Below, in pieces: positions 25,938 through 46,906 of a stretch of 64,000 nucleotides of DNA. Made by a program: the position numbers and the translations under genes. The stretch's first letter is position 1; each line of letters opens with the position of its first letter. The stretch spans positions 1,860,001-1,924,000 of the forward strand of contig NZ_FLKM01000009.1 of assembly GCF_900086585.1 (NCBI RefSeq). The letters run 5' to 3'. This DNA comes from Emergencia timonensis. Lineage in GTDB: Bacteria; Bacillota; Clostridia; Peptostreptococcales; Anaerovoracaceae. The notes under the pieces were generated by a model. It saw nothing but the letters and a program-made list of their open reading frames with translations, did no database searches and was not told the origin of the DNA.

Positions 25938-27071
25938 TTATAAGGAATCACTTAATCTCTTTGACACAGCAATGATGGTCTCATTTTTGTGACGAGCAAT
26001 AATTCTATTAAAATAGCAAATTGTATCATTATTTGCAAAACGATGGTCTACAATATTAATTCCATCTGACCCTTTTGCAATAAAAAGCAGGTACTTAGGC
26101 GATAGGGGAAATAACATTCCATTTGAATTTTTGTTTTCTACAGCACTTTTGTTTTCAAATGCTGGATTATCTGAAGTGATAAAAGCACCTGTGTCATCAT
26201 ATGTCTCAAACAAAATCATCTGGCACCCATTCAATGCTGCAGTCACAACATTATGATAAAATCCACCAGCCTTTTTGAAGAATATTTTATATAATTCAGA
26301 ATACCATATTCCCGTCATTAACTCATCTACATAACCTTTTCCTTCTATAATTTCATCTTCAGAAGGGACGCCTTCATCAGTTGCGTGACACATTGATGAA
26401 AAGACCGGATATAATAAATTTTCTTTGATTTTTGTATATACCCCCATCGCATCAAATATAGGGTTTCTACACAGCATTATAAAAAATGAGCAAAGCATTT
26501 CATTTGCAATTTCAATAGGAATACATCTTTCGCTTTGGCCTATTGCAACTGGAGTCCCATTATGAACTGCATTCACAAAATTGTTATATGTATTTTCCCA
26601 GTTCTTTTCTAAGTAATTATCAAAAGCATCTTCAATGATATAACAATTCAATGCCTCTATTTGATTTTTTATAGCTGTTTTTTTTGCAACATTCCCATCA
26701 TCATAATAGAATTCCCAATCATCAATTTCAAAAAAATGTTTATTTATACTCTTTTTGGTTTTAATTATACTGTATCCAATTTTTCCATATGCTGGTTTAG
26801 CAAAGCCTGTTCTCAGTAAATCATAAATCATAGAAACGAATTCATTTTTTACTTTTGAACACGACTTACAAATATAAGAATAGGAAAAATTTATTGTATA
26901 AAGATGAGGTTTCCAAAGAACTGAATTTCTGTTAGCACCTTCTCCAATATCAGAGCCATTAAATACATAAACTCCATCAAATTTCTTGTCCGGTTCTTTT
27001 GATGTTTCTACTTTGGTTTCCCATGCTTTCATATATACACGAGGAACAAAGTGTTGTCTCTTTGTAGGCAT
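25938..27071 (-). CDS. DUF4238 protein
   Basis: 377 residues. The N-terminal motif KRQHFVPRVYMKAW is the hallmark of DUF4238. Two cysteines (CKSCSK, about residue 66) and a C-terminal segment with ITSDNPAFENKS and MLFPLSPKYLLFIA also fit the family. DUF4238 proteins are of unknown function, often found on genomic islands; an antiphage role has been suggested by context only. Start ATG 27071 follows AGGAGGG. It is strongly AT-rich compared with the backbone genes, consistent with transfer. Confidence 0.82.
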   Translation of the reverse strand: MPTKRQHFVPRVYMKAWETKVETSKEPDKKFDGVYVFNGSDIGEGANRNSVLWKPHLYTINFSYSYICKSCSKVKNEFVSMIYDLLRTGFAKPAYGKIGYSIIKTKKSINKHFFEIDDWEFYYDDGNVAKKTAIKNQIEALNCYIIEDAFDNYLEKNWENTYNNFVNAVHNGTPVAIGQSERCIPIEIANEMLCSFFIMLCRNPIFDAMGVYTKIKENLLYPVFSSMCHATDEGVPSEDEIIEGKGYVDELMTGIWYSELYKIFFKKAGGFYHNVVTAALNGCQMILFETYDDTGAFITSDNPAFENKSAVENKNSNGMLFPLSPKYLLFIAKGSDGINIVDHRFANNDTICYFNRIIARHKNETIIAVSKRLSDSL

Positions 27072-27557
27072 CTTTAAAATCCCTCCTTTTCATAATATCC
27101 AATCCACTACTTAAACTCTCTCTGACATCTAAATCACTGCTTCAATATCCGACATCTAAATTGGCACCTAAACTATACACACTTTTCCTTCTAGGGCAGT
27201 GTTGCCCTGTTTCTGCAAAGCATTATGTTTAGACCTCGGATTGAATGTTTTCATACTCCCGATAGCAAAAAAGACCTGAAATCATGCCTTTTTTACAGCT
27301 ATTTACATGGCCTTAGACATCAGAACAACCGTCTCAACATGGCTTGATACCATGATTATGATGTCCGGTTATCGCGGTAGTAGCTGCTTGTTTACGGTAA
27401 CTTACTCGAGGCAATTTTTCGTTTGCGAAAACATATCTATCTGCACTGCTTGTATCTATATTTATGTTCCTGAAAAAGAGTCTTCGTCGCCACCGTCTCA
27501 ACTGCCATTTTCATCGTCTCAACTTGAACCATCCGGAAATTCGGGACAGTTGCTCCA
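27072..27557. other. Decayed intergenic DNA of the island
   Basis: 486 bp with no credible gene on either strand. It holds two copies of GACATCTAAAT (27126-27136 and 27154-27164), a short hairpin AGGGCA-GTGT-TGCCCT near 27195, and stop-riddled minus-strand sequence that continues the chimeric pseudogene. It looks like debris from successive deletions. Confidence 0.4.
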
Positions 27558-27890
27558 TCATTCAAATTTCTTGAATGATCCACTAACCATTCTTGTTGAA
27601 CCACTCCTTTTCAGAACCCCCTCATCCTGTGATTGTCTCATAGCATATCGAACACCACTATATGATAATCCAACTTTGCCCGCCAGCGCTGTTGCCCATG
27701 AAGAAGTGTCTTTTCCATAATCATCGGTATATTGCCAAATCTTTTGACTGGCCATATAACTGCAAACCGCAAGTTCAGGAAGCACAACAAAATCTGGTCT
27801 GTCAAGTTTCGCTATCAAGTCCTCTATGTAAATCTTGCGCTGGGCAATTCCTTTTATGTCATTATTCAGTTCAAGTGTAAAGATTCGCAT
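27558..27890 (-). pseudogene. Chimeric remnant: carbon-nitrogen hydrolase head joined to a winged-helix tail
   Basis: From ATG 27890 (AGGTGAG ribosome site) the first 68 residues (MRIFTLELNNDIKGIAQRK, then PDFVVLPELAVCSYMASQK with the catalytic Glu region) are the start of a nitrilase-superfamily hydrolase. From about residue 69 the sequence switches to ALAGKVGLSYSGVRYAMRQS and EGVLKRSGSTRM, which reads like the winged-helix tail of Fic- or AlbA-type helicase-like proteins. The nitrilase Lys and Cys are missing, so the product cannot be an active amidase. Confidence 0.65.
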
Positions 27891-27952
27891 GATTCTCACC
27901 TGCCATTTACTATCTATAAAACGCCTCTCTTCTGTTTTTTATCTCAATGGGT

Positions 27953-28426
27953 TCACCAAGGTTTATTTTCACACAGATTGTTCCAATGATAAACGATTTT
28001 ATCACAATCAAGTGTGATTTGACATTCTATGTGGAAAGGTGAGTGATTCATCCATATCCAGCATTGATACAGTACATCCCTATCGCTGTGATATTCATTG
28101 ATGAATTCCAATTCCCACTTTCCACAGTTGATATTAGCCATTAATTGTTCAACGCTTAGGGATACTCTGTTTGTGCTTACCAATCGCCGGAAAATACGGT
28201 GCTCTTTGAAAATGTAAATGTCTGACACATCAAAATGAACAATCTGTACTTCTGATTTATCTGTTCTTACTGTATTTTTCAAAGGATTTCGTTCATCGTC
28301 GGAAGAAATCCAAAATCCGTCGTCAAAGATAAAAAGCAAATCACTCTTACGAATAGCCATAGCTGTAGCTCTGCAGTCATGTAACGATATCAAATCATTC
28401 TTATTTTCGTCTGAATTTCTCCACAT
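27953..28426 (-). CDS. Hypothetical protein, immunity-like
   Basis: 157 residues, acidic and Trp-rich (LISLHDCRATAMAIRKSDLL, IFDDGFWISSDDERN). It has no signal or membrane helix. The small, acidic, beta-rich type resembles immunity proteins of polymorphic toxin systems, but I cannot name a family. The in-frame sequence upstream of ATG 28426 (REIGWWDT) looks protein-like, so translation may begin earlier, at a non-ATG codon. It lies 55 bp downstream of the DUF6434 gene. Confidence 0.55.
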   Translation of the reverse strand: MWRNSDENKNDLISLHDCRATAMAIRKSDLLFIFDDGFWISSDDERNPLKNTVRTDKSEVQIVHFDVSDIYIFKEHRIFRRLVSTNRVSLSVEQLMANINCGKWELEFINEYHSDRDVLYQCWIWMNHSPFHIECQITLDCDKIVYHWNNLCENKPW

Positions 28427-28481
28427 TGTATCCCACCATCCGATTTCTCTTCTGTTCAGCTCCCCAGCAAACTGGGATTGA

Positions 28482-29057
28482 TCAATCCAAAGCTACAAGG
28501 TCAGACTGTTCATAACCGTTATGCCCTTGCAATTGTTTTTTATATTTCCAACACTTAATTGCATCCTCTAAAGTTTTCCCTCGGTTGTCCGCAAAAAAAG
28601 CTCGGATATAGGTGTTATACTCAAATTGTTTATCAATTTGTGTCTTTCCTTTTTTCTTCTCTTCAAGGATTTGATCATAAGCTGCGATAGCTTCCTTATA
28701 AGTTTTTCCGGCATTGTTTTTCAACCATTTTTGAAAAGCCACATTAAATGAAAAGCTGCTTCCGATATGTTCTTTAAAAAATGCCCGATGCTTTTCCGAA
28801 CAAATAAAATCAACTTCGATTATCGTATCTTCGCTAATATCGGATACTGTCATTACTTTTCGCTTTGCTTTTGAAGGTGCTTGAATTTCGCCGGTATCAA
28901 GAAAACAAGCAATTCTATCTGTTATTTGCAGCTTTCCACCAGAAACAGGCAGACCGTTTTTCCTGCAAAAGTCTACTAATTCTTCTTTCAAATAATAGAA
29001 ATCACGAAATGTTTTGCTATCTAAATTTTTATCTAAAACAGGTCTTTCAGTCATCAT
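28482..29057 (-). CDS. SAP-like/DUF6434 domain protein
   Basis: 191 residues. Residues 12-55 (FRDFYYLKEELVDFCRKNGL, ITDRIACFLDTG) form a SAP-like helix pair that may bind nucleic acid. Residues about 70-130 match DUF6434 (VDFICSEKHRAFFKEHIG, FNVAFQKWLKNNAGKTYKEA), and the C-terminal helix repeats the pattern (FEYNTYIRAFFADN, KTLEDAIKCWKYKK). Members are common orphan proteins in Firmicutes. Start ATG 29057 with GGGGAAC upstream. Confidence 0.7.
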   Translation of the reverse strand: MMTERPVLDKNLDSKTFRDFYYLKEELVDFCRKNGLPVSGGKLQITDRIACFLDTGEIQAPSKAKRKVMTVSDISEDTIIEVDFICSEKHRAFFKEHIGSSFSFNVAFQKWLKNNAGKTYKEAIAAYDQILEEKKKGKTQIDKQFEYNTYIRAFFADNRGKTLEDAIKCWKYKKQLQGHNGYEQSDLVALD

Positions 29058-29156
29058 GTTCCCCTTTTCAAATTCTAAGTTAACAAGTATATATTACGTA
29101 TCAGCACTGAAACATGTACTATTTCTTGGGATATCTTAAATATCCTGTTTTCTTTT

Positions 29157-29666
29157 TTGATCCAGCATCTTTATACTTTCCAAATAATCCTTTTCCACAC
29201 TGCTCAGCGTCTTTGCCTTATACTTTTTATACTCGGTCTGAGCCTTTTACATGGCCTGCAAATAACTGACCGTACCCTTTCCGGTGAGAAGATTTTCTCC
29301 TGTGGAAGTCAAAATCCCATCCAGATAACTCTTTGCAATCTTTGCTTCTCGCAGTGTCGGTTGTTTCCTTGAAAATGACATCAATCCCATGAAGTCTTTT
29401 TCCGCATCCGCACGATGATAAATTACCTCTTGATATGTTTATTCATCAGAAGCAGTATAGGCAAATTTTGCCCACACTGAATTTTTCTCCAATTCGCCTT
29501 CTTTGAATATATTTCTCACATGTTTTCCGATAACGCTTTTGTCCCTCTGAAATAATTCAGCCATCTGATCAATAGACAGCCACACTGTTTCATCATACAT
29601 ATTGACATCTATTTTGGTCAAACCATCTTCAGTCAGATAAATCAGCATTTTTCCATAATTGTCCAC
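29157..29666 (-). pseudogene. RhuM-family gene remnant, copy A
   Basis: From ATG 29666 the frame gives a RhuM N-terminus (TKIDVNMYDETVWLSIDQMA) and reaches a TAA near 29440. The same frame continues with later RhuM sequence (EVIYHRADAEKDFMGLMSF, then TLREAKIAKSYLDG) and a further in-frame stop before KAQTEYKKYKAKTLSSVEKD. Two internal deletions and two stops make it a pseudogene. Its 3' 150 bp are a direct repeat of 33536-33685. Confidence 0.8.
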
Positions 29667-29716
29667 TGCGGTATCCCCCTAATTTTATCGTTTTACAGCA
29701 GCAATAAGCATTTGTA

Positions 29717-30763
29717 TCATTCGGATTGATTTTTTGCCTGTTCTTCCAGCTCCAGCAAAAACTTATCATAATCAGACATGAATAATCGGTCTTGCACAAT
29801 ACGATACTTTTCGAACTCAGTTTCTGCATGAAGTTTTGCCTGCTCTGCACTGATCTTACCAGCGTCTGTCAGTATCTCGTTACCGTTAAATTCAAGAAAG
29901 CCGTCCAGCCGTTTTGCCCAGTCTTCCATGCTCATGGGAATCTGTCGTTCAGCCTGTAACTCCGCATAATCAAGGTACAAGTTTACAATTCTTTCCATAT
30001 AGGACATTTCCTTATCACTCAAATAGTTCTTCGCAATTGACACATCTGTCTTGACAATTTTCCCATCTGGAGCAGCCTCCCAAGTAGTCAACCCCATATG
30101 TTTTTTCTCTGTATCGGCACGCTCCACAATCAACTCTGCTGCTGTGTGCCTGTGAACCGCCCAGTGCATTTTGTTCTGCACTGTCTGGAAAAACTGCCTA
30201 GTTGTCTTCGCATCCTTATCGTAATCAAAGGCTGTGGCATAGAGGTCTGTGATTTTTTGATAAAATTTACGCTCAGAAAGACGAATTTCACGGATATTCT
30301 GCAGCTGACGCTCAAAATATTCATCTGTGAACATATGCCCCTTTTTCAGCCGTTCCTTGTCCATCGTCCATCCCTGAATGGTGTAATCTTTGACGATTTG
30401 CCCTGACCACTTACGGAAACGGACAGCACGGTCATTATTGACCTTGAAGCCGACTGCAATAATCATCTGGAGATTATAATGCTTTGTACTATACTGTTTT
30501 CCATCGGCAGCAGTTATAAAGTATTTCTTTACAACTGCCTCTTCTATCAGTTCGTCATCATCAAATATCTTCTTAATATGCTGCCCGACGTTCTGCACTG
30601 ACACATCATAAAGTTGCGCCATCATCTTTTGTGTCAGCCATATATTTTCATCTTCGTAGCGCATTTCCATACTGTCAGAACGATCTCCAACTGCCGCAAC
30701 ATAGGTCAAATATTCAGCCGCAGAGCTGTGTATCGTTATTTCCTCTTTTTTCTTTTTGGGCAT
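29717..30763 (-). CDS. rhuM: RhuM-family protein, intact
   Basis: 348 residues from ATG 30763, which has GGAGGACAGCC upstream. An N-terminal helix-turn-helix-like part (ENIWLTQKMMAQLYDVSVQNVGQHIKKIF) is followed by the conserved KYFITAADGKQYSTKHYNLQMIIAVGFKVN and FRKWSGQIVKDYTIQGW. The C-terminal MEDWAKRLDGFLEFNGNEIL region ends the family. RhuM was named in a Salmonella pathogenicity island; relatives are mobile-element cargo and some resemble toxin-like death-on-curing proteins, but the activity is unknown. It is the only complete one of three RhuM copies here. Confidence 0.88.
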   Translation of the reverse strand: MPKKKKEEITIHSSAAEYLTYVAAVGDRSDSMEMRYEDENIWLTQKMMAQLYDVSVQNVGQHIKKIFDDDELIEEAVVKKYFITAADGKQYSTKHYNLQMIIAVGFKVNNDRAVRFRKWSGQIVKDYTIQGWTMDKERLKKGHMFTDEYFERQLQNIREIRLSERKFYQKITDLYATAFDYDKDAKTTRQFFQTVQNKMHWAVHRHTAAELIVERADTEKKHMGLTTWEAAPDGKIVKTDVSIAKNYLSDKEMSYMERIVNLYLDYAELQAERQIPMSMEDWAKRLDGFLEFNGNEILTDAGKISAEQAKLHAETEFEKYRIVQDRLFMSDYDKFLLELEEQAKNQSE

Positions 30764-30820
30764 GGCTGTCCTCCAATTCATCATCTTTTCTTTTCATAAA
30801 TAATCTTGTCAACTGAAAAA

Positions 30821-31573
30821 TCACTTGAACACCTTGTCCAACTCCTCAATCATTAATTCCGGCTGAAATATCGAAGTCTCACAATGTGCTTTTCCCGCGA
30901 AACATTTTATAACTGTATCCGGGTAGTTTTTCAGCATGAATTTTGCAGACTTCTTTGCCAACATTTCATTTGCGGCTGTTCCATGATAGAAATATATTTT
31001 CGTATTTGGTGTATCTATATTACTTGATAATTTGAAAACTGCAACGCTATTAATACAGTTTGAAATAGTAGTATCCGTCATATTGTCGAGCACCTGCAAA
31101 AAGTCAGCAAGATGTTCTTTGAAAATGATGTTATTGACCGCTTGCTTCAGCGTTTTCTTATCTCTTTTCTGCATTTTATGAGTGATATTCAGATAGAAAC
31201 TAGTCATCATCTTTCTGACGACAGTGGGAAAAGATATAAGGGGCGTCCCATCAAAAAGTACATTTTCAATACTTAGTCTTTGATTCTGCCACAATGTCGC
31301 TGCTAGTACACCGCCCATAGACATACCGTAGATAGCATATACCTTTTCATCATAATGAGAAATATAGTAATCTTCAAGTACTCTAGCTTCCTCGGAAAAC
31401 GAAATAAAATCTTCCTTGCAGTTTGGATTGTGCCCGGACATGATTGGAACGATGATGTGAAAGTCCTTTTTATAGTGTTCAATATACGGATTCCATATTT
31501 GATAAGGAGATTGAAACCCATGTATCAGGATGATTTTTCTGTTACATGGATCTCCGAATTCTAATATTTCCAT
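30821..31573 (-). CDS. Alpha/beta hydrolase (esterase-like)
   Basis: 250 residues. Oxyanion motif IHGFQSP near residue 18, nucleophile elbow YGMSMGGVLAA (Ser about 88), and a late His in FAGKAHCETSIF complete a plausible triad. The substrate is unknown; proteins of this shape are carboxylesterases or lactonases. Start ATG 31573 follows AAGGAGGTG. It lies within the AT-rich island and is unrelated to the hydrolase at 9127. Confidence 0.82.
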   Translation of the reverse strand: MEILEFGDPCNRKIILIHGFQSPYQIWNPYIEHYKKDFHIIVPIMSGHNPNCKEDFISFSEEARVLEDYYISHYDEKVYAIYGMSMGGVLAATLWQNQRLSIENVLFDGTPLISFPTVVRKMMTSFYLNITHKMQKRDKKTLKQAVNNIIFKEHLADFLQVLDNMTDTTISNCINSVAVFKLSSNIDTPNTKIYFYHGTAANEMLAKKSAKFMLKNYPDTVIKCFAGKAHCETSIFQPELMIEELDKVFK

Positions 31574-31599
31574 TCAGTTACACCTCCTTATATTCTAAC

Positions 31600-31708
31600 T
31601 TTATGAACAAGTATATTTTTCTTTCTGCCGCTTCATAAATGTTTCCAATCCATACTGACGAACAAACTCGCCTTTGATGCAGTCTTTGATCTTGCATTTA
31701 CGGCAATG
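31600..31708 (-). pseudogene. DUF3795 remnant, internally deleted duplicate
   Basis: The minus strand reads CRKCKIKDCIK joined directly to GEFVRQYGLETFMKRQKEKY. These are two separate parts of the neighbouring DUF3795 gene (ICRKCEIKDCIRD and SEFVRQYGLEAFMEQQKEKY) with the middle missing. It is a partial tandem duplicate downstream of the larger copy. Confidence 0.7.
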
Positions 31709-32450
31709 CTATCGTTCTGACATATATTTTTGTATTTCATCTGGAGTCAGTTTCCGTATCTGCGTATTTTCATATTCTCTGTATTCTCGAGTAATGAAAA
31801 CAGGGACCATACTTTCACACGTTTTTCCTTTATTCTTTTTCAGATATAACTGCAATTCCTCGTTGTCCGCAAAGATTTTATACGATAGTCTGCCATTGTC
31901 ACCTTTTATCTCGTAAATACCACATGGCTTTTTCATACTGTAATCAGCAGCACGCAAATACAATTTTGCAATTGCTAGTGACTTAAAAGGGAAATTCCAC
32001 CGCTGCAATCCTCTCCTAGGATCATGTTCAATACAAATACACCTCCCACAGGTTCCGCATATGTACTGAGTATGATTTTCCAAGCAATCCATCGGATTCA
32101 ACAATGGAGTTATTCTATTTTTATCAGCATAACATTCTATACACATATTTTCCTGGCACTCGCTGCGTTCCCTGTCATGAATGGAAATAATACCGCAGCA
32201 TTTTGAACAGGCATATTTTTCTTTCTGCTGTTCCATAAACGCTTCTAACCCGTATTGACGAACAAACTCACTATTTTCATAAGGCTTGCCTGATATCTCT
32301 TGTTATAGCTTTTTTCAAGATTCTTTATCAGCTTACACGAATAGTCAGAACACTCGAAGCAATAGGACAGACCGTTGTCTCTAATGCAGTCTTTGATCTC
32401 GCATTTGCGGCAGATTATCCCTTCGCTATTTAACTCTCCGATAAACTGGA
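31709..32450 (-). pseudogene. DUF3795-type zinc-cysteine protein, frameshifted
   Basis: Two frames together give one protein. An N-terminal DUF3795 domain (IICRKCEIKDC, then YCFECSDYSCKLIKNL) lies at 32300-32450 and lacks an ATG (ATA stands where a start is expected). After one frameshift near 32270-32300, the second frame carries ENSEFVRQYGLEAF, the zinc-ribbon YACSKCCGIISIHDRERSEC and a 130-residue C-terminal domain to the stop at 31709. The downstream part alone could be translated from ATG 32236 (175 residues). The Cys pairs suggest zinc or metal binding. Confidence 0.7.
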
Positions 32451-32456
32451 ATTTTA

Positions 32457-32945
32457 TTATATCTTCAAATTTCCATATACATGAATGAAATGCACAATTT
32501 CAAATATGATACTTGTTCCAAGTAATACCCAATTTTCTCTCCATAGACCGATACCAGCATAATATAACGGTGGTAATGCAACAAGGAAGAACATTATTAC
32601 TCCAAATGACTGATGTCCGTTAAAATATAATCCCCAGCCAAAGAAATTAAGTAATAAAGAAATTATCATAATATAGAACCCGATTTTAGTAATCCCTTTT
32701 CCTATGCTTACCAAATCTCTGTTTTCTTGAACGAGGAAAATCATTATTGCTATGCACAAAGATCCCAGTATCTTTTCCGCAATATCTAAAATTGCCGATG
32801 ATTCCTGCATATTCATAACTGGATTGCTTTCGAGCTTAAACAAAGGCATTGCCATATAAGGAACCTCCTGCAATGCAAAGAGGAGAAGTCCAAATATCCA
32901 AAATCCGAAATATTGATTTCCGCCGATTTTTATCCATTTAATCAT
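32457..32945 (-). CDS. Integral membrane hypothetical protein
   Basis: 162 residues from ATG 32945, preceded by GTGAGGAT. Four or five hydrophobic helices (FWIFGLLLFALQEV, ILGSLCIAIMIFLV, GFYIMIISLLLNFFGW, GVIMFFLVALPPLYYAGIGLW, VLLGTSIIFEIVHFI) span nearly the whole chain. I recognise no family. A longer frame to 32987 has no ribosome site. Confidence 0.6.
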   Translation of the reverse strand: MIKWIKIGGNQYFGFWIFGLLLFALQEVPYMAMPLFKLESNPVMNMQESSAILDIAEKILGSLCIAIMIFLVQENRDLVSIGKGITKIGFYIMIISLLLNFFGWGLYFNGHQSFGVIMFFLVALPPLYYAGIGLWRENWVLLGTSIIFEIVHFIHVYGNLKI

Positions 32946-33022
32946 TTTACTTTTATCCTCACAAATTCTAATTTCACGCTCTAACAACTTTTCGCAAAAC
33001 TGGAAGTTGTAGAGTTTTTACC

Positions 33023-33433
33023 CTATGTTTCACTTGTACTTCCAATTTCAAGTAAATTCCCCTCTGGATCAGCTACATAAAAGTTGCGAATACCGAAAGG
33101 ATATGTGATGGGTGCTCCTGTGGGAAGCTGCACACCCAACTTTAGCAGACTCTCATACTCCAAATCTACCTCGGCAAAATTGGATAGCCAAAGGGCGATT
33201 TCAAATGTCTGATTGATACCCTTTGGAAGTACATAATCTTCTCCTATCGCCTTTACAAATTCTTCCCTGCTATACATAAACAAGGACAATTCGCCACTTG
33301 CAGTTTCAAATTCTGCAAAAGGTCCGCCATTCCATTGAGTTTGAAAACCTAGTGTATCCCTATAAAATCGAACCATGTTTTCCATATCACCGACCAGCAG
33401 GCTTACACCTACACGTACATCTTTTCCATTCAT
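33023..33433 (-). CDS. VOC-family (glyoxalase/bleomycin-resistance fold) protein
   Basis: 136 residues. The fold motifs VGVSLLVGDMENMVRFYRDTLGFQ and the C-terminal NFYVADPEGNLLEIGS define a vicinal-oxygen-chelate protein; the terminal Glu of LLEIG is the usual metal ligand. Members include lyases, dioxygenases and drug-sequestering proteins, so the substrate is open. ATG 33433 has GAGGAGG 8 bp upstream and is preferred over a TTG two codons earlier. Confidence 0.85.
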   Translation of the reverse strand: MNGKDVRVGVSLLVGDMENMVRFYRDTLGFQTQWNGGPFAEFETASGELSLFMYSREEFVKAIGEDYVLPKGINQTFEIALWLSNFAEVDLEYESLLKLGVQLPTGAPITYPFGIRNFYVADPEGNLLEIGSTSET

Positions 33434-33524
33434 TATCAAATCCTCCTCTACAAAATGCGATTTGTGAAAATCGCATTCCGACTATAAGGATTTTATTTTC
33501 CCGTTTAGTACCCTCACTTCTTCT

Positions 33525-34168
33525 TGCCTTTTTGTTCCAGCATCTTTAAACTTTCCAGATAATCCTTTTTACACTGCTCAGTGTTTTAGCCTTATACTTT
33601 TTATACTCGGTCTGAGCTTTCTCCATAACCTGCAAATGACTGACCATACCATTTCTCGTGAGAAGGTTTTCTTCGGTGGACGTCAAAATCCTGTCCAGAT
33701 GCTTTGCCCAATCTTCCATTGTCATAGGAATTTCCGCCTCCGCCCAGTTCCTTTAGGCGGTCATCGTCCATCGCAAAACTTTTTTTGATATATTCTTTTA
33801 AGACATTCGTTGCCCAGATACGAAACCGTACACCACGCTGTGATTTCACACGGTATCCTACAGAGATTACGACATCAAGATTATATAATAGTCTATCGCT
33901 TATTCAACCTGTCTGCCGCCCTCTTTTTGAACTGTTGCAAATTTTGCAACAGTTGACTCTCGAGTCAGTTCGCCTTCTTCAAAAATTTTACTTGTCTTGA
34001 AATTGTGGATTTAGCTCCTGTAAATAATTCCGACATTTGATCAAGAGACAACCGCACCGTTTCATCCTGCATGCTAACATCTATTTTTGTCAAACCTTCT
34101 TCGGTCTGATAGATCAGCATTTCTCCATGATGATCCACTGTAACGTCCTCTTGATCTTCCCACCTCAC
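33525..34168 (-). pseudogene. RhuM-family gene remnant, copy B
   Basis: From ATG 34168 a RhuM N-terminus (GLTKIDVSMQDETVRLSLDQ) is read, then a stop. The sequence resumes in another frame with YRVKSQRGVRFRIWATNVLKEYIKK, shifts again after RLKELGG, and ends with the same C-terminal DNA as copy A. Multiple shifts and a large deletion make it non-functional. It lies directly downstream of queA and marks the other border of the RhuM-rich part of the island. Confidence 0.8.
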
Positions 34169-42396: not shown

Positions 42397-43233
42397 TTAT
42401 TGAATCGGCTTGCTTTCACCCAGCTCCCTATATAGCTGTGGCAGGAAGCTTGCCAGATGAGAAAACTCTTCTACGTTGTGCAGTGCCAACCCCATCGGCA
42501 CGAATTCAGGCACCTTGGCGCCTTCTGGCAGAACACAGACCGGCTGGCCTTTGATGATGCGGTATCCCAGCCAGAATCTGGTCCGCGATTCGATGCCGTC
42601 TTCTGTCTCTCTGTAATAATGCATCATGATGGCAGGCGTTTTCCCTGTCGGTCGGGCGCGGTTTTCCGTCAGCCCATACCCGCCTATGATGTAGGCATGC
42701 TGCGCTGCCAGAGCTTCTTTAGAAAACCCTAGTTCTTCTGTTGGACGGAAGTGAATCACCACGTCCTCCATTCCGCCGCCGATATCCTCCATGACAAAAT
42801 GGACAACATCTGCAATCTTGTTTTCCACCGGAATATCTGGATTTAAAATTTTTTCACGGTCCTGATCTGAGACGGCTACAGACTGATGGCAGTATGGGTT
42901 CCAGATCCGATATCTTGCCTGTTCCAAGGGATGCCATGCAAACCACCATTTAATCATATCTAAAGTAACACTGGGAAATTTATTGTTGACAGCCAGATAG
43001 CCAGCGCCGTTTTCCATGATGCAGTAGCCTGTTTCCCCTTCCATATATCCCGGCTCCAGCAGCTTTGCCGCCTCCTGCGGATAGATGGCAAGGCCAGCGT
43101 CCATCGGTCCTTTTAACAGCTTTGCCATCTGCTCCGGGTTTGGCTTTGCCATTTGCCCTGTATAGTATTTAGCATAAGCCTTCTTGTTCTCTATTTCATT
43201 CAAAGGCATTGCCGTTTTTTCTTTCATTTCCAT
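42397..43233 (-). CDS. DAPG/phloretin hydrolase-like protein
   Basis: 278 residues. The segment YCIMENGAGYLAVNNKFPSV, WWFAWHPLEQARYRIWNP and the C-terminal ALHNVEEFSHLASFLP match the 2,4-diacetylphloroglucinol hydrolase (PhlG)/phloretin hydrolase family, which cleaves a C-C bond next to an aromatic ring using zinc. Likely metal ligands are H116, E149, H252 and E256 (HxxxE), placed like those of PhlG; this mapping is my inference. Start ATG 43233 overlaps the flavoprotein stop by one base. In an operon with ferredoxin and AprA-like flavoprotein, it may finish an anaerobic polyphenol or 1,3-diketone pathway. Confidence 0.82.
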   Translation of the reverse strand: MEMKEKTAMPLNEIENKKAYAKYYTGQMAKPNPEQMAKLLKGPMDAGLAIYPQEAAKLLEPGYMEGETGYCIMENGAGYLAVNNKFPSVTLDMIKWWFAWHPLEQARYRIWNPYCHQSVAVSDQDREKILNPDIPVENKIADVVHFVMEDIGGGMEDVVIHFRPTEELGFSKEALAAQHAYIIGGYGLTENRARPTGKTPAIMMHYYRETEDGIESRTRFWLGYRIIKGQPVCVLPEGAKVPEFVPMGLALHNVEEFSHLASFLPQLYRELGESKPIQ

Positions 43234-44966
43234 TATTCTGCCTCCTTATTTGGATATCTGTCTATCGGAAGTTTCATAGGCGCTACGACAAAGTCTGTGC
43301 CTTCCCCTGTCGGCGTCGCCGTGTACCATGTCAGCTCTTTACTGTGATCCGGATAGTCCTCTCTGAGGAACCACCCTCTGGATTCTTTTCTGTGAAGAGA
43401 GGTCGTAAAGAACAACTTCGCACAGAGCAGCATAGACTGAATTTCATTACAGCCAAAGAGGTCGTGGGCGGATTCTGCCTTCAGCGTCTCAAGTTCTGCC
43501 TGCAGCTTTTCGATTTCCGTCAAAGCGGCCTGCAGGCGTTCTTCTTTTCTATATAAACTGTTTTCCAGCGGCTGCATCACTCTATGAATCTTTGGCAAAA
43601 ATTCCATCACTTTGACACTGCCGCCCTGCTTCATCGGCTTCATAAATCTTTCGTCGATTTTTGCCACGTCGCCTTCGTCAAAGGTGCATACCGGCGCATT
43701 CTTCACGTAGTCCGAAACGCTTCTGCCAGCGATACAGCCGGAATTCTGTGCAAATGCCAGTCCGCTTCCTCTGACTCTTCCCGGCGGCGGAGGCACTGCT
43801 CCCGCTGCGGCGCTGCCGCCGTAACAGATATCACCTGCCGCAAAGAGTCCATCGAGGGTCGTTTTCATATCCTTATCCACCATCAGGCCGGAAAACTCTC
43901 CAATCAGTCCCGGTACGATTTCGTCACTGGTCTGCTGGGAATAAGCGTTGAAGAAGAGGCTGCCCCAGAAAGTGTCTGCAAAAGGTCTGTGGAAATAATC
44001 ATCGCAAGCCAAGGTGGTCATCAAATATGGCATCAGCGGATTTTCCTGCTGTCTGTAGTGCATAGGGCCGTTGCCCGCTACCGTCTGCTTATACCACTCC
44101 GCCAGAGAGTTCTGATCCACGTCCGGGTGCTCCCCTTGCGTATGTGCGAGTCCTACATTTTCACCTTTGTCGTTATAAAGGGCAAACTCTACGCCCATGC
44201 TGGATTCAAAATTCTGTAAGCTGATCCAGTTGTAGAAGGAACCGAATTCACAGTTTCGAAACTTTGCACCTGCTCTGAAAGCTGCCGCGAGCCCCTCTCC
44301 CCTTCCTGGAGACCACATCGGCATGATGCGGTAATTCTGAGAGCCCGTAGCAAGGACGACTGCTTTTGCCTGGAAAACCGTTTGACTGCCGTCATCAATA
44401 TTGTATGCGACTGCGCCACTGATTTTCCCCTCTGCAAGCAGCAGATCCACGACACCGGTTCTATCGACAAACCTGATGCCAGCCTTCTGCGCGTACTTCC
44501 TCACATTGACCATGAAATCAAGGTCGATGGCAACCAATGTCCATGGGAAATGATCCGGCTCATCAAAAATGAACTGCCCGTTCTCGTCCTTTCCCTGCAC
44601 CTGGGCCAGCCATTTCAACGTTTTAAAAGAACCGTCTTCTTTTTTGTCGATTTTCCCTCCTGACCATTTATCAAGCAATTCTACACCCCGATTGAGGTTT
44701 TCCGCATACTGCAGCTGCGCTTCCTGATCGTTGAGATAATCACCTATGTATTTGGTATGATAAGCCACATAGTCCTCTGGTTTCGCATCTCCCAGCATGG
44801 TCATAATGCCGGCGCCTCTGTTCGCCTTACCCGCATATCCCGCGGTATATTTTTCTACAACCGTAACTTCTGTCTCAGGATCTGCTTCTTTTGCCGTAAT
44901 CGCTGCCGCCATTCCTGCCAAACTGCCGCCGATTACCAAAATATCTGTGTTGATTCTTTCAGCCAT
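43233..44966 (-). CDS. AprA-like FAD-dependent oxidoreductase (fumarate reductase/APS reductase superfamily)
   Basis: 577 residues. FAD motif DILVIGGSLAGMAAAITAKEAD, then NRGAGIMTML and GLFAAGDICYGGSAAAGAVPPPPGRVRGSG near residue 390. The C-terminal helical domain has RKESRGWFLREDYPD, the superfamily's arginine-rich motif. The overall layout, with a 4Fe-4S partner encoded upstream and overlapping by 8 nt, is that of AprBA, but no sulfate-reduction gene is present and the chain is shorter than AprA. It likely reduces or oxidises an unsaturated or aromatic substrate; which one is unknown. Confidence 0.85.
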   Translation of the reverse strand: MAERINTDILVIGGSLAGMAAAITAKEADPETEVTVVEKYTAGYAGKANRGAGIMTMLGDAKPEDYVAYHTKYIGDYLNDQEAQLQYAENLNRGVELLDKWSGGKIDKKEDGSFKTLKWLAQVQGKDENGQFIFDEPDHFPWTLVAIDLDFMVNVRKYAQKAGIRFVDRTGVVDLLLAEGKISGAVAYNIDDGSQTVFQAKAVVLATGSQNYRIMPMWSPGRGEGLAAAFRAGAKFRNCEFGSFYNWISLQNFESSMGVEFALYNDKGENVGLAHTQGEHPDVDQNSLAEWYKQTVAGNGPMHYRQQENPLMPYLMTTLACDDYFHRPFADTFWGSLFFNAYSQQTSDEIVPGLIGEFSGLMVDKDMKTTLDGLFAAGDICYGGSAAAGAVPPPPGRVRGSGLAFAQNSGCIAGRSVSDYVKNAPVCTFDEGDVAKIDERFMKPMKQGGSVKVMEFLPKIHRVMQPLENSLYRKEERLQAALTEIEKLQAELETLKAESAHDLFGCNEIQSMLLCAKLFFTTSLHRKESRGWFLREDYPDHSKELTWYTATPTGEGTDFVVAPMKLPIDRYPNKEAE

Positions 44967-45216
44967 TGGTTTTTTCCTCCCTGTTCATTCTGCAGATATA
45001 TTCCCTTGGGAACAGATAACTGTCGTAATCCGGTTCTACCTTGATCGCCCGTTTCGGACAGTTCAATTCACAGAACATACACTGCACACATTCTTCCGGA
45101 TATTTGATGATAGGCCTCTTTGCAGCTTCATCCCATTTGATGACGTCGATAAAACACGCTTTGAAGCAAATCTTACAGCCGATGCATTGTTCTTTATTCA
45201 CGATAATGGTATTCAT
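44959..45216 (-). CDS. Dicluster ferredoxin, AprB-like
   Basis: 85 residues from ATG 45216 with GGAGGAAGTCT upstream. Two 4Fe-4S motifs: CIGCKICFKAC and CVQCMFCELNCP. A C-terminal tail of about 30 residues (DYDSYLFPREYICRMNREE) resembles the extended tail by which AprB wraps its flavoprotein. It overlaps the flavoprotein gene by 8 nt, so a stable complex is likely. First gene of the three-gene operon. Confidence 0.92.
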   Translation of the reverse strand: MNTIIVNKEQCIGCKICFKACFIDVIKWDEAAKRPIIKYPEECVQCMFCELNCPKRAIKVEPDYDSYLFPREYICRMNREEKTNG

Positions 45217-45325
45217 AGACTTCCTCCTTTTTTTGTTTTTTACATTCCCTGTCTTCATTATATTGCTTCGAAGAATCCGCTTCATTTACAAAACATACAA
45301 TTTTCAGAAAAATTCAGCTCTTTCT

Positions 45326-45343
45326 ATTGTAACATTCTACAAT
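45326..45343. promoter_or_regulatory. Inverted repeat in the divergent pucR/ferredoxin spacer
   Basis: ATTGTA-N6-TACAAT lies between the two divergent starts (45216 and 45374), next to a TATAGT box reading toward pucR. It is a candidate operator for the PucR-type protein. Confidence 0.5.
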
Positions 45344-45373
45344 ATAGTGTACAGTAAACCTGGAGGTGAACCG

Positions 45374-46906
45374 ATGAAAATAACGATGGATTTGATTTTT
45401 ACCAGGCTGTTCATGGAGCAACCCCAGATGCGCTTTGATATATCCGCTTTAGATAAAGAAAAAGGCCTGACTGGCGTCAGACTGCTGCCAGTTGAGAAAA
45501 TACATTTAAAATACGACTGTCTATACGTCTGTGATAATACCCACCCCATTATAGGCGATGGAATTCCCGAAGAACTCTATATTGTCTGTATTGATCCAAG
45601 TACAAAATCCACGATACAAAACAGCCGTCATATCTTTCTATGCAGTGAGATTGAAGTCGCACTCTTTTTAAACATCCTACAAGAGATTTATGTCTCATTC
45701 AAAGATTGGCATTCCCGATTAGAACGAATGGTCATAGAAAATGCCTCGGTACAGGAGATGCTGTCCGCATCGGAAGCGATGATTCAGGCTCCCATGCTGA
45801 TTTACGACCCCAGCCTGAAAATCATCGGCGCAACAGAAAGCATTGAAATTAAGGACAAGATTTTCAATGAGGTTATCAGGCAGGGATATCTGCCCAATGA
45901 ATACATCAAATTTTTTGAACAGGAAAAAGTATTTCTCAATTTAAATCGTCAAGGCGCTGCAGAATCTGCGCCTAAAGACTTGCGCCAACACAGGGATTAC
46001 ATCAGAATCATACAGACAAAGTCAGAAGTCTTGGGACACGGTGTGCTTTTGCTGCTAGATTCTGCCAACAGAAACTATCAGATCTATCTGTTTCAAGCGC
46101 TCTGTGACCTCATCCTGGACAATCTGAACCTGCATAACGCGCAAAATGCCGTATACGACTACCTTCTAACTGATATCTTAAATGGCGCGCTCAGAGATGA
46201 GACGGCCATCGCTGACAGAATCAAATATGTGGGCTTGTCCCTGCATGCTGACTATGTGCTGATGATGCTGAGATTTGAGGATAGTAACTCCGTTCCTGTG
46301 CGCTTCATCATCAACTCATTGGCAATGCTCCTTCCTTCGGCGAAAGTTTTTTCCTACGAAGGCGATATTCTCGCGCTGCTTCAACTTCACGACCTGTCTA
46401 AGGAAAAATATAGAGACCAGATAGACGGATTCTGGTCGATCATCAGAGAGGAATTGACGCAAAGACGTCTGCGCTGCAGCGTAAGTAAAAGTTTTGACCG
46501 CATTACAAAAATTACGACTGCATACCAGCAGTGCCAGGCAGCCTACGAACTAGAAACGGATCAGAAGGCGCAGCTGATACTATATGAAGATTACTGGCTT
46601 TCACATCTTTTTGAAACCTGTAGCAAGATAATCCCTTTAGAAAACTTCTGTAATCCTGTAATCAAACAGATCGCCGCAAAAAATCAGACGGGAGCGGCTT
46701 CTCCTCTGGAAATTCTGACGGCATACCTGGAGAGTGGCAGACAGTTAACCAGAGCGGCAGAAATTCTCCATATGCACAGAAACAACGTGCTCTATCACAT
46801 CACCAGATTGGAAAAAGAATATAACTTGGAAATGGACGACAGCGACAAACGGCTGCATTTGCAGATTTCGCTAAAGATCTGGCAATATCTCAATGACTGC
46901 AAATAA
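45374..46906 (+). CDS. PucR/CdaR-type transcriptional regulator
   Basis: 510 residues from ATG 45374 (GGAGGTG upstream). The N-terminal half is an unassigned sensor (MKITMDLIFTRLFMEQPQM on). The C-terminal PucR helix-turn-helix (LEILTAYLESGRQLTRAAEILHMHRNNVLYHITRLEKEY) is typical of activators of purine, sugar-diacid and aromatic catabolism. It is divergent from the ferredoxin-flavoprotein-hydrolase operon and is probably its substrate-responsive activator. Confidence 0.88.
   Translation: MKITMDLIFTRLFMEQPQMRFDISALDKEKGLTGVRLLPVEKIHLKYDCLYVCDNTHPIIGDGIPEELYIVCIDPSTKSTIQNSRHIFLCSEIEVALFLNILQEIYVSFKDWHSRLERMVIENASVQEMLSASEAMIQAPMLIYDPSLKIIGATESIEIKDKIFNEVIRQGYLPNEYIKFFEQEKVFLNLNRQGAAESAPKDLRQHRDYIRIIQTKSEVLGHGVLLLLDSANRNYQIYLFQALCDLILDNLNLHNAQNAVYDYLLTDILNGALRDETAIADRIKYVGLSLHADYVLMMLRFEDSNSVPVRFIINSLAMLLPSAKVFSYEGDILALLQLHDLSKEKYRDQIDGFWSIIREELTQRRLRCSVSKSFDRITKITTAYQQCQAAYELETDQKAQLILYEDYWLSHLFETCSKIIPLENFCNPVIKQIAAKNQTGAASPLEILTAYLESGRQLTRAAEILHMHRNNVLYHITRLEKEYNLEMDDSDKRLHLQISLKIWQYLNDCK

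Follow-up and report, generated by a model that had tools for sequence, protein, structure and literature searches.

The 64,000-nucleotide stretch of Emergencia timonensis DNA that was analysed (contig NZ_FLKM01000009.1, referred to as the window) carries on its minus strand three consecutive genes that appear to join a ferredoxin-linked flavoprotein to a C–C hydrolase. The set starts with FDX (44959-45216), encoding an 85-aa dicluster ferredoxin, continues with FLA (43233-44966), encoding a flavoprotein of 577 aa that binds FAD, belongs to the AprA/FrdA superfamily and is a putative reductase of an organic substrate, and ends with HYD (42397-43233), encoding a 278-aa C–C hydrolase of the PhlG/phloretin-hydrolase type. 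The start chosen for FDX is the ATG that follows a GGAGG (a mechanical list of open reading frames, ORFs, puts it at 45285), and a site of this type lies ahead of FDX, FLA and HYD alike. Since FDX and FLA overlap by 8 nt, and FLA and HYD by 1 nt (TAATG), translational coupling along the set is plausible, in line with an earlier note on this DNA, which had described the hydrolase as coupled to its redox pair. Diverging from FDX on the plus strand is the gene for a 510-aa PucR-type regulator (45374-46906), with HTH_30 and GGDEF_2 Pfam domains and an ATG preceded by GGAGGTG. The 157-bp region between the two divergent starts (45217-45373), which is assigned to no strand, is the presumed promoter/operator.

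HYD belongs to Pfam family PF18089 (DAPG_hydrolase), scoring 225.4 bits against a gathering cut-off of 22.7 (8e-67), and its solved relatives by sequence are the phloretin hydrolase of Mycobacterium abscessus (5xe5/5xey, 33% identity) and PhlG (3hwp, 28%). The AlphaFold model of HYD (predicted local distance difference test, pLDDT, of 89.9) has the same fold, with 5xey_A (9.4e-21) and 3hwp_A (4.0e-20) as best Foldseek matches, together with 5xe5, and template modelling (TM) scores on the query of 0.79, 0.79 and 0.78 to these phloretin hydrolase/PhlG entries; the next tier of matches, plant abscisic acid-receptor and PR-10 folds, comes at ~1e-5 and weaker. Length is shared with these enzymes as well, and so are four zinc-ligand positions, H116, E149, H252 and E256, which align to H129, E160, H270 and E274 of PhlG (His, Glu, His and Glu, which we take to be its zinc ligands) and which are all kept in 12 of the 14 HYD proteins found in sets (see below). 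The name of DAPG/phloretin-type hydrolase that was first given to HYD is therefore well founded in both Pfam score and fold, and the lack of zinc that had been named as a possible objection is not seen, by sequence, at any of the four positions. Since HYD reaches only 125.6 bits against a cut-off of 600 for the 2,4-diacetylphloroglucinol (DAPG) hydrolase equivalog (NF047887), it cannot be filed as PhlG itself. HYD is predicted to be a zinc enzyme of phloretin-hydrolase fold and a C–C hydrolase of acylphloroglucinols, but one that, unlike phloretin hydrolase and PhlG, sits with a redox partner, to which it is fused in some genomes.

The redox partner is less conventional. FLA displays the Pfam domains FAD_binding_2 and Succ_DH_flav_C, and the solved chain that is best matched by its profile is the alpha subunit of the 3'-phosphoadenosine 5'-phosphosulfate (PAPS) reductase of Methanothermococcus (8a8o, 1.3e-50), followed by AprA (1jnr, 3.3e-40), succinate dehydrogenase (7d6v, 1.2e-39) and fumarate reductases (~1e-36). 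FLA, AprA and PAPS reductase alpha are FAD subunits of one superfamily, and AprBA also has a dicluster ferredoxin subunit. The pair nevertheless departs from AprBA, since curated cut-offs are far off (57.2 versus 641.75 bits for aprA, TIGR02061, and 27.7 versus 135.65 for aprB, TIGR02060), the middle of FLA does not align and the partner is a C–C hydrolase. Calling FLA AprA-like is therefore right for its superfamily and nearest solved relatives, but not for AprA proper. Curated fumarate reductase models are missed as widely (154.3 versus 587 for PRK08275, 124.2 versus 567.3 for TIGR01812). In alignments to E. coli FrdA, whose His44, His232, His355 and Arg390 we take to be flavin/catalytic sites, the place of the covalent-flavin His44 is occupied by a Gly, His232 by Y245 and His355 falls near I355, while R397 is retained at the place of Arg390; two blocks can be aligned, and the stretch that separates them aligns to neither FrdA nor AprA. 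The family has in addition a block of its own, GAVPxPPGRxRGSG, which is almost invariant in 13 aligned rows. As for FDX, which matches Fer4/Fer4_7 with two Fer4 stretches, its eight cysteines are unchanged across seven aligned sequences. Judged by sequence, FDX–FLA resembles an FAD reductase that is fed by ferredoxin and whose substrate site is altered.

The three genes are found together well beyond the window. The FDX–FLA–HYD set occurs in 14 genomes (G labels denote genomes and L labels loci), namely G000, which is the window's own, G062, G161, G189, G395, G403, G464, G512, G560, G752, G775, G776, G777 and G779, in two gene orders (FDX–FLA–HYD and HYD–FDX–FLA). This is not a random sample; its carriers include a Holophagaceae (Acidobacteriota) metagenome-assembled genome (MAG; L040), a MAG from the jejunum of roe deer that is assigned to Eubacterium sp. 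(L036) and two Lachnospiraceae MAGs, one with L037 and one from sheep duodenum (G777, also home of L038). In the 12 unfused set loci, gaps between genes are at most 40 nt with the starts chosen in this analysis (the start is uncertain for the HYD of G560, which lies 100 bp from the end of a contig), and in G395 (812 aa) and G512 (813 aa) FLA and HYD are fused in one protein, which FDX adjoins. That the genes are mere chance neighbours is ruled out by this recurrence and by the fusions: the FDX–FLA–HYD operon is real, and the joint conservation that the earlier note had proposed as a check is there.

Among 391 genomes sampled from the class, HYD (E<=1e-10) is present in eight and FLA (E<=1e-60) in six. 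All five strong FLA (E<=1e-160) have HYD adjacent or fused, and the sixth (4e-61, with an internal stop) has no HYD within its 1.5-kb flanks; this overlap has a hypergeometric probability of 7.5e-10, in which kinship is ignored (G464 and G560 are of one genus), and the search scored three candidates per genome, so that an FLA could be missed. In the window's order (393 genomes), HYD (1e-10) is found in 12 genomes and the set is carried by six of the 16 HYD rows. The distribution of FLA is patchy, with 2/41 and 2/6 genomes in two families that hold it, and FLA has no match at 1e-40 in 72,556 plasmid records. A table of HYD neighbourhoods, which excludes hits not exceeding 40 bits, has 57 rows, two of which were taken as repeats (L051 has the same coordinates as L041, and L052 is probably L042); in 22 of the rows the flank is shorter than 3 kb on one side or both. 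A strong FLA gene lies less than 3 kb from HYD in 16 of these rows, and in eight others (six distinct) there is within that distance only a weak FAD_binding_2 relative, confirmed by Pfam in L041, with each such FLA on the same strand as its HYD. In L043, L044 and L045, FDX–FLA has no full-length HYD next to it, and the pair in L043 adjoins a PF18089 protein that is short and divergent (24.6 bits versus a cut-off of 22.7). Because FrdA-superfamily flavoproteins recur beside PF18089 hydrolases in more than one architecture, a functional link is favoured.

A clue to what this link might be comes from the company of the set. In Clostridium scatologenes, phloroglucinol is degraded by PGR, DPGC, TfD and TAL, downstream of flavone reductase, chalcone isomerase, enoate reductase and phloretin hydrolase, and FDX–FLA is not among the upstream steps named in the available excerpts of that study (PMC10470551). 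The families of the four phloroglucinol proteins are found beside or near the set in three genomes, and elsewhere in the window's own. In G062 and G161, the set directly adjoins, on the same strand, genes for a DPGC-type cyclase (PF04199), an SDR, a 3HCDH and a BKACE protein (the latter called by N-terminal likeness in G161), while in G189 CoA-transferase genes and then such gene types start ~4-5 kb from the set on the opposite strand. In the window's own genome, SDR, cyclase, 3HCDH and BKACE genes, the families of which were confirmed, form one cluster on another contig (L142, contig C8), and their products are 52% (SDR, as PGR), 68% (cyclase, as DPGC) and 56% (BKACE, as TAL) identical to L113/L115 proteins. 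All these names are given by family and company rather than by comparison with the characterised C. scatologenes proteins, and that of the SDR gene supposes that PGR belongs to the SDR family. Ten of the 14 set genomes contain DPGC (at 1e-20, all ten best matches being better than 1e-140), but only nine of the 391 class genomes do (1e-80), three of these being among the five set genomes there; the overlap has a hypergeometric probability of 8e-5, with kinship again ignored for G464 and G560. A second cluster in the window's own genome (L143 2224-9817; G000:C8 ~2.038-2.046 Mb), with TAL-like (56%), DPGC-like (37%) and TfD-like (46%) genes, perhaps represents a sister ring-opening pathway for another substrate.

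Reductases next to a phloretin-hydrolase-type enzyme are not without precedent. According to the available excerpts, FLR, Fcr and Phy are encoded one after another in C. butyricum, where FLR is classed in the flavodoxin family and Fcr is an FAD-dependent oxidoreductase with an alpha/beta barrel (PMC11868195), and FLR–Fcr–Phy flavonoid degradation, with FLR again a flavodoxin-family protein, is also found in C. ljungdahlii and Flavonifractor plautii (PMC7862272). Like FLR–Fcr–Phy, the window set places a reductase system next to an enzyme of the phloretin hydrolase type, and does so in an anaerobe, but its reductase is an AprA/FrdA-superfamily FAD protein with a dicluster ferredoxin, unlike OYE-type Fcr and flavodoxin-type FLR. 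No OYE-type or FMN_red gene lies beside the window set among the neighbours scanned (39.9-50.5 kb). Closer to home, each of two HYD genes in one Clostridium intestinale genome (L039, L108), which are the sister group of the window's clade in the HYD tree, has an OYE and an FMN_red gene behind it; these are the families expected for Fcr and FLR, a match by family and not to characterised sequences. The pairing is therefore already known, but FDX–FLA may be new as the reductase partner, and no description of the set was found in titles and abstract openings of the open-licence PubMed Central (PMC) literature, among the matches listed.

How might the set work? Since phloroglucinol-type genes neighbour the set, phloroglucinol is the expected product, which points to an acylphloroglucinol (e.g. 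a dihydrochalcone) as substrate of HYD. A donor of low potential, namely ferredoxin (perhaps itself supplied by an FeFe hydrogenase), would pass electrons to the two 4Fe-4S clusters of FDX, and from there to the non-covalent FAD of FLA, which would reduce an enone or flavanone bearing a phloroglucinol ring to a saturated acylphloroglucinol of the dihydrochalcone type. HYD would then cut the C–C bond between ring and carbonyl to yield phloroglucinol and a phenylpropionate-type acid, the former entering the PGR–DPGC–TfD–TAL route. Most likely, then, FLA makes the saturated ketone that HYD cuts, and the FLA–HYD fusions suggest that the product is handed over from one to the other. On whether FDX–FLA is indeed a ferredoxin-linked reductase that makes an acylphloroglucinol for HYD, taking the place of OYE-type Fcr (with FLR) in FLR–Fcr–Phy operons as a non-homologous stand-in, our judgement is evenly balanced; donor, direction, substrate and order of reactions are all what we infer from genes and their context. 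A bolder version, which we regard as rather doubtful, is that the pair is a new flavonoid reductase of AprBA fold, driven by ferredoxin, that opens flavanones reductively or saturates chalcones/flavones and delivers its product directly to a coupled or fused C–C hydrolase, maybe with H2 as the source of electrons. The latter idea comes from two FeFe hydrogenase genes, one of which starts 6 nt after FDX–FLA relatives in L045, and the other of which lies, with a gene for an NAD(P)-binding protein, past the PucR gene of the window (760.1 bits with the NCBIfam group A6 model, slightly below the cut-off of 765). Plant polyphenol breakdown in an anaerobe, as put forward when the locus was first noted, thus fits the set neighbourhoods. 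The reductive step to a 1,3-diketone or dearomatised ring that went with it finds no specific support, the context pointing instead to an acylphloroglucinol, and the ring would be reduced and opened by the products of separate PGR/DPGC-type genes, not by the set.

Named enzymes that open or cut flavonoids in anaerobes are few in the excerpts available to us (FLR, Fcr, CHI and Phy), and surveys based on relatives of these (e.g. PMC8398226, as far as its available text goes) would overlook the reductase wherever a degrader relies on a different family. If FDX–FLA has the proposed role, (i) the list of polyphenol-degrading bacteria would be widened, (ii) flavonoid breakdown would be tied to hydrogen and ferredoxin metabolism and (iii) a natural fused two-step enzyme would be on offer.

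Several findings weigh against such a role. DPGC (1e-20) is not found in four of the 14 set genomes (G395, G403, G512 and G752), the first two of which are ~80% complete, and the set of G752 (L109) sits inside a polyketide-synthase operon. The need for a substitute of Fcr/FLR is itself unsupported, since FLR relatives are present in half of the set genomes and OYE relatives (1e-60) in 12 of the 14: FLR matches are strong in three (G775, G776 and G777) and weak in four, including the window's own genome (28%, 2e-25), with none found at 1e-15 in the other seven, while OYE is a broad family that decides nothing (32-33% identity for the matches in the window's own genome). The zinc-ligand positions are imperfect in two sets, with an Asn for His in the HYD of G752 and three of four positions lost in the HYD that adjoins FDX–FLA in G777 (L095), where a second PF18089 gene with its ligands in place sits after an NMO-like gene that follows FLA. 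The identity of HYD to the characterised phloretin hydrolase is low, the FLA model has a pLDDT of 51.8 (from four alignment rows), which makes its active site unreadable, and the FLA profile leans to the set (four of its seven rows come from set members). The trees, finally, speak of an unsteady partnership. FLA falls into a clade with the window, L036, L037 and L109, and another with L095, L111-L115, L144, L146 and L147, with L040 apart, and the HYD tree has the window's clade again, although with the set-less L038 within, and a second clade of seven sets, outside which the two fusions fall. As set-less HYDs (L038, L039, L108, L101 and L104) are interspersed with set HYDs, and at least four gains or losses of the set are required, the unit must have been broken or re-formed. 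FLA and HYD have thus travelled together often, though not always.

Different substrates altogether, i.e. other beta-dicarbonyl or dearomatised compounds as the earlier note proposed, are an unlikely alternative to acylphloroglucinols. Four PF18089-type copies in the window's own genome, and up to nine matches elsewhere, imply several substrates for the family, and HYD is far from the PhlG equivalog; this has to be set against the phloroglucinol-type clusters to which the set is physically linked in three genomes, and against the presence of DPGC in 10 of the 14. Two of the paralogues in the window's own genome lie at L049 8442-10253 (G000:C8), followed by a BKACE gene, and at L047 9411-10322 (G000:C9, ~24 kb before the window). 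The seven to nine PF18089-type matches in each of G776, G777 and G779, the last being the Holophagaceae MAG, suggest that these are specialist phenolic degraders.

Alternatively, FLA could act after HYD, which would cleave an unsaturated, chalcone-like substrate and release a cinnamate-type acid for FLA to reduce as an electron sink. Fumarate/succinate enzymes, whose substrates are carboxylates, are numerous among the solved relatives of FLA, and neither fusion nor gene order fixes the order of reactions. We consider this quite unlikely, however, because the alignable residues of the carboxylate site are not retained (Y245 for His232, and I355 near His355) in a protein whose middle does not align to FrdA, and because a free acid would seem not to require channelling, but fusions exist.

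That the set serves in polyketide tailoring or self-resistance, with G752 revealing its true role, is improbable. There, the set is flanked on one side by an AMP-binding/acyl carrier protein gene and on the other by KS-AT genes, all in the same orientation, with an FLA 68% identical to that of the window, and PhlG belongs to the gene cluster of a DAPG producer. Yet no polyketide synthase is seen among the 39 window proteins scanned or, judged by N-terminal letters only, at other set loci, and the HYD of G752, having lost a zinc-ligand residue, may be a derived case. In this genome itself, where the cassette (L109 2850-13999 with L116/L117; G752:C1 ~3.215-3.24 Mb) forms part of an AMP-binding/PKS operon, it is possible that FDX, FLA and HYD are tailoring enzymes of a polyketide.

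Lastly, the idea that FLA is a plain fumarate or adenosine 5'-phosphosulfate (APS) reductase that adjoins a hydrolase by accident, for which speak best NCBIfam matches that are models of these two enzymes and the succinate dehydrogenase that scores close to AprA, is scarcely credible and was rejected, in view of the wide shortfall in curated scores, the FrdA residues not kept (with no His at the covalent-flavin place), the repeated pairing with HYD and the two fusions. Likewise, and as had been noted before, sulfur metabolism seems foreign to this locus: families for sulfate activation or sulfite reduction are absent from the 39 scanned window proteins, a scan that leaves out the remaining window ORFs and the rest of the genome.

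The PucR-type regulator, which had been counted in with the operon, is a local feature. A gene of this type, with HTH_30 and 28% identity to the window regulator, stands in the same place in L036, and BLAST relatives are found in three of 15 loci (L036, L038 and L039), only the first of which has the set. Among the regulators scanned at other set loci are LysR (L111, L144) and sigma-54/PAS (L114, L115) genes, which rules out PucR as a member of the conserved core. A 10-nt arm pair (45256-45265/45340-45349) is found between FDX and the PucR gene; promoter and terminator scans revealed nothing exceeding shuffles, including promoter-like matches in this intergenic region.

Other arrangements around these families deserve mention. 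In L041, L042 and L110, HYD is followed by FMN_red (FLR-like), FAD_binding_2 flavoprotein and 2Fe-2S/GltD-like genes (Pfam-tested in L041 only), which is another reductase set beside the HYD family. An FabK/NMO-like FMN protein gene adjoins the set in L036 (6871-7836), L037 (2-739) and L095 (8259-9233), with 45-78% mutual identity, but not in the window; that it might be the Flavonifractor flavone reductase was ruled out, the solved relatives of the L036 protein being FabK/NMO. In L044 (240-6480), the neighbours of the FDX–FLA pair are an OYE-type gene and a hydrolase of Peptidase_S15/PepX_C type, so the pair may have an unrelated hydrolase as partner too. In L038 (5998-11495) and L098 (2732-8493), a PhlG-type hydrolase gene is found beside thiolase-like, PTA_PTB acyl-phosphotransferase and acetokinase-family genes, which suggests recovery as ATP of the acyl group of acylphenols. 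Within the window, a formamidopyrimidine-DNA glycosylase gene lies downstream of HYD, and a region further away (26000-34000), with a lower G+C (0.35-0.39) and RhuM-family and DUF4238 genes, resembles an accessory/mobile island.

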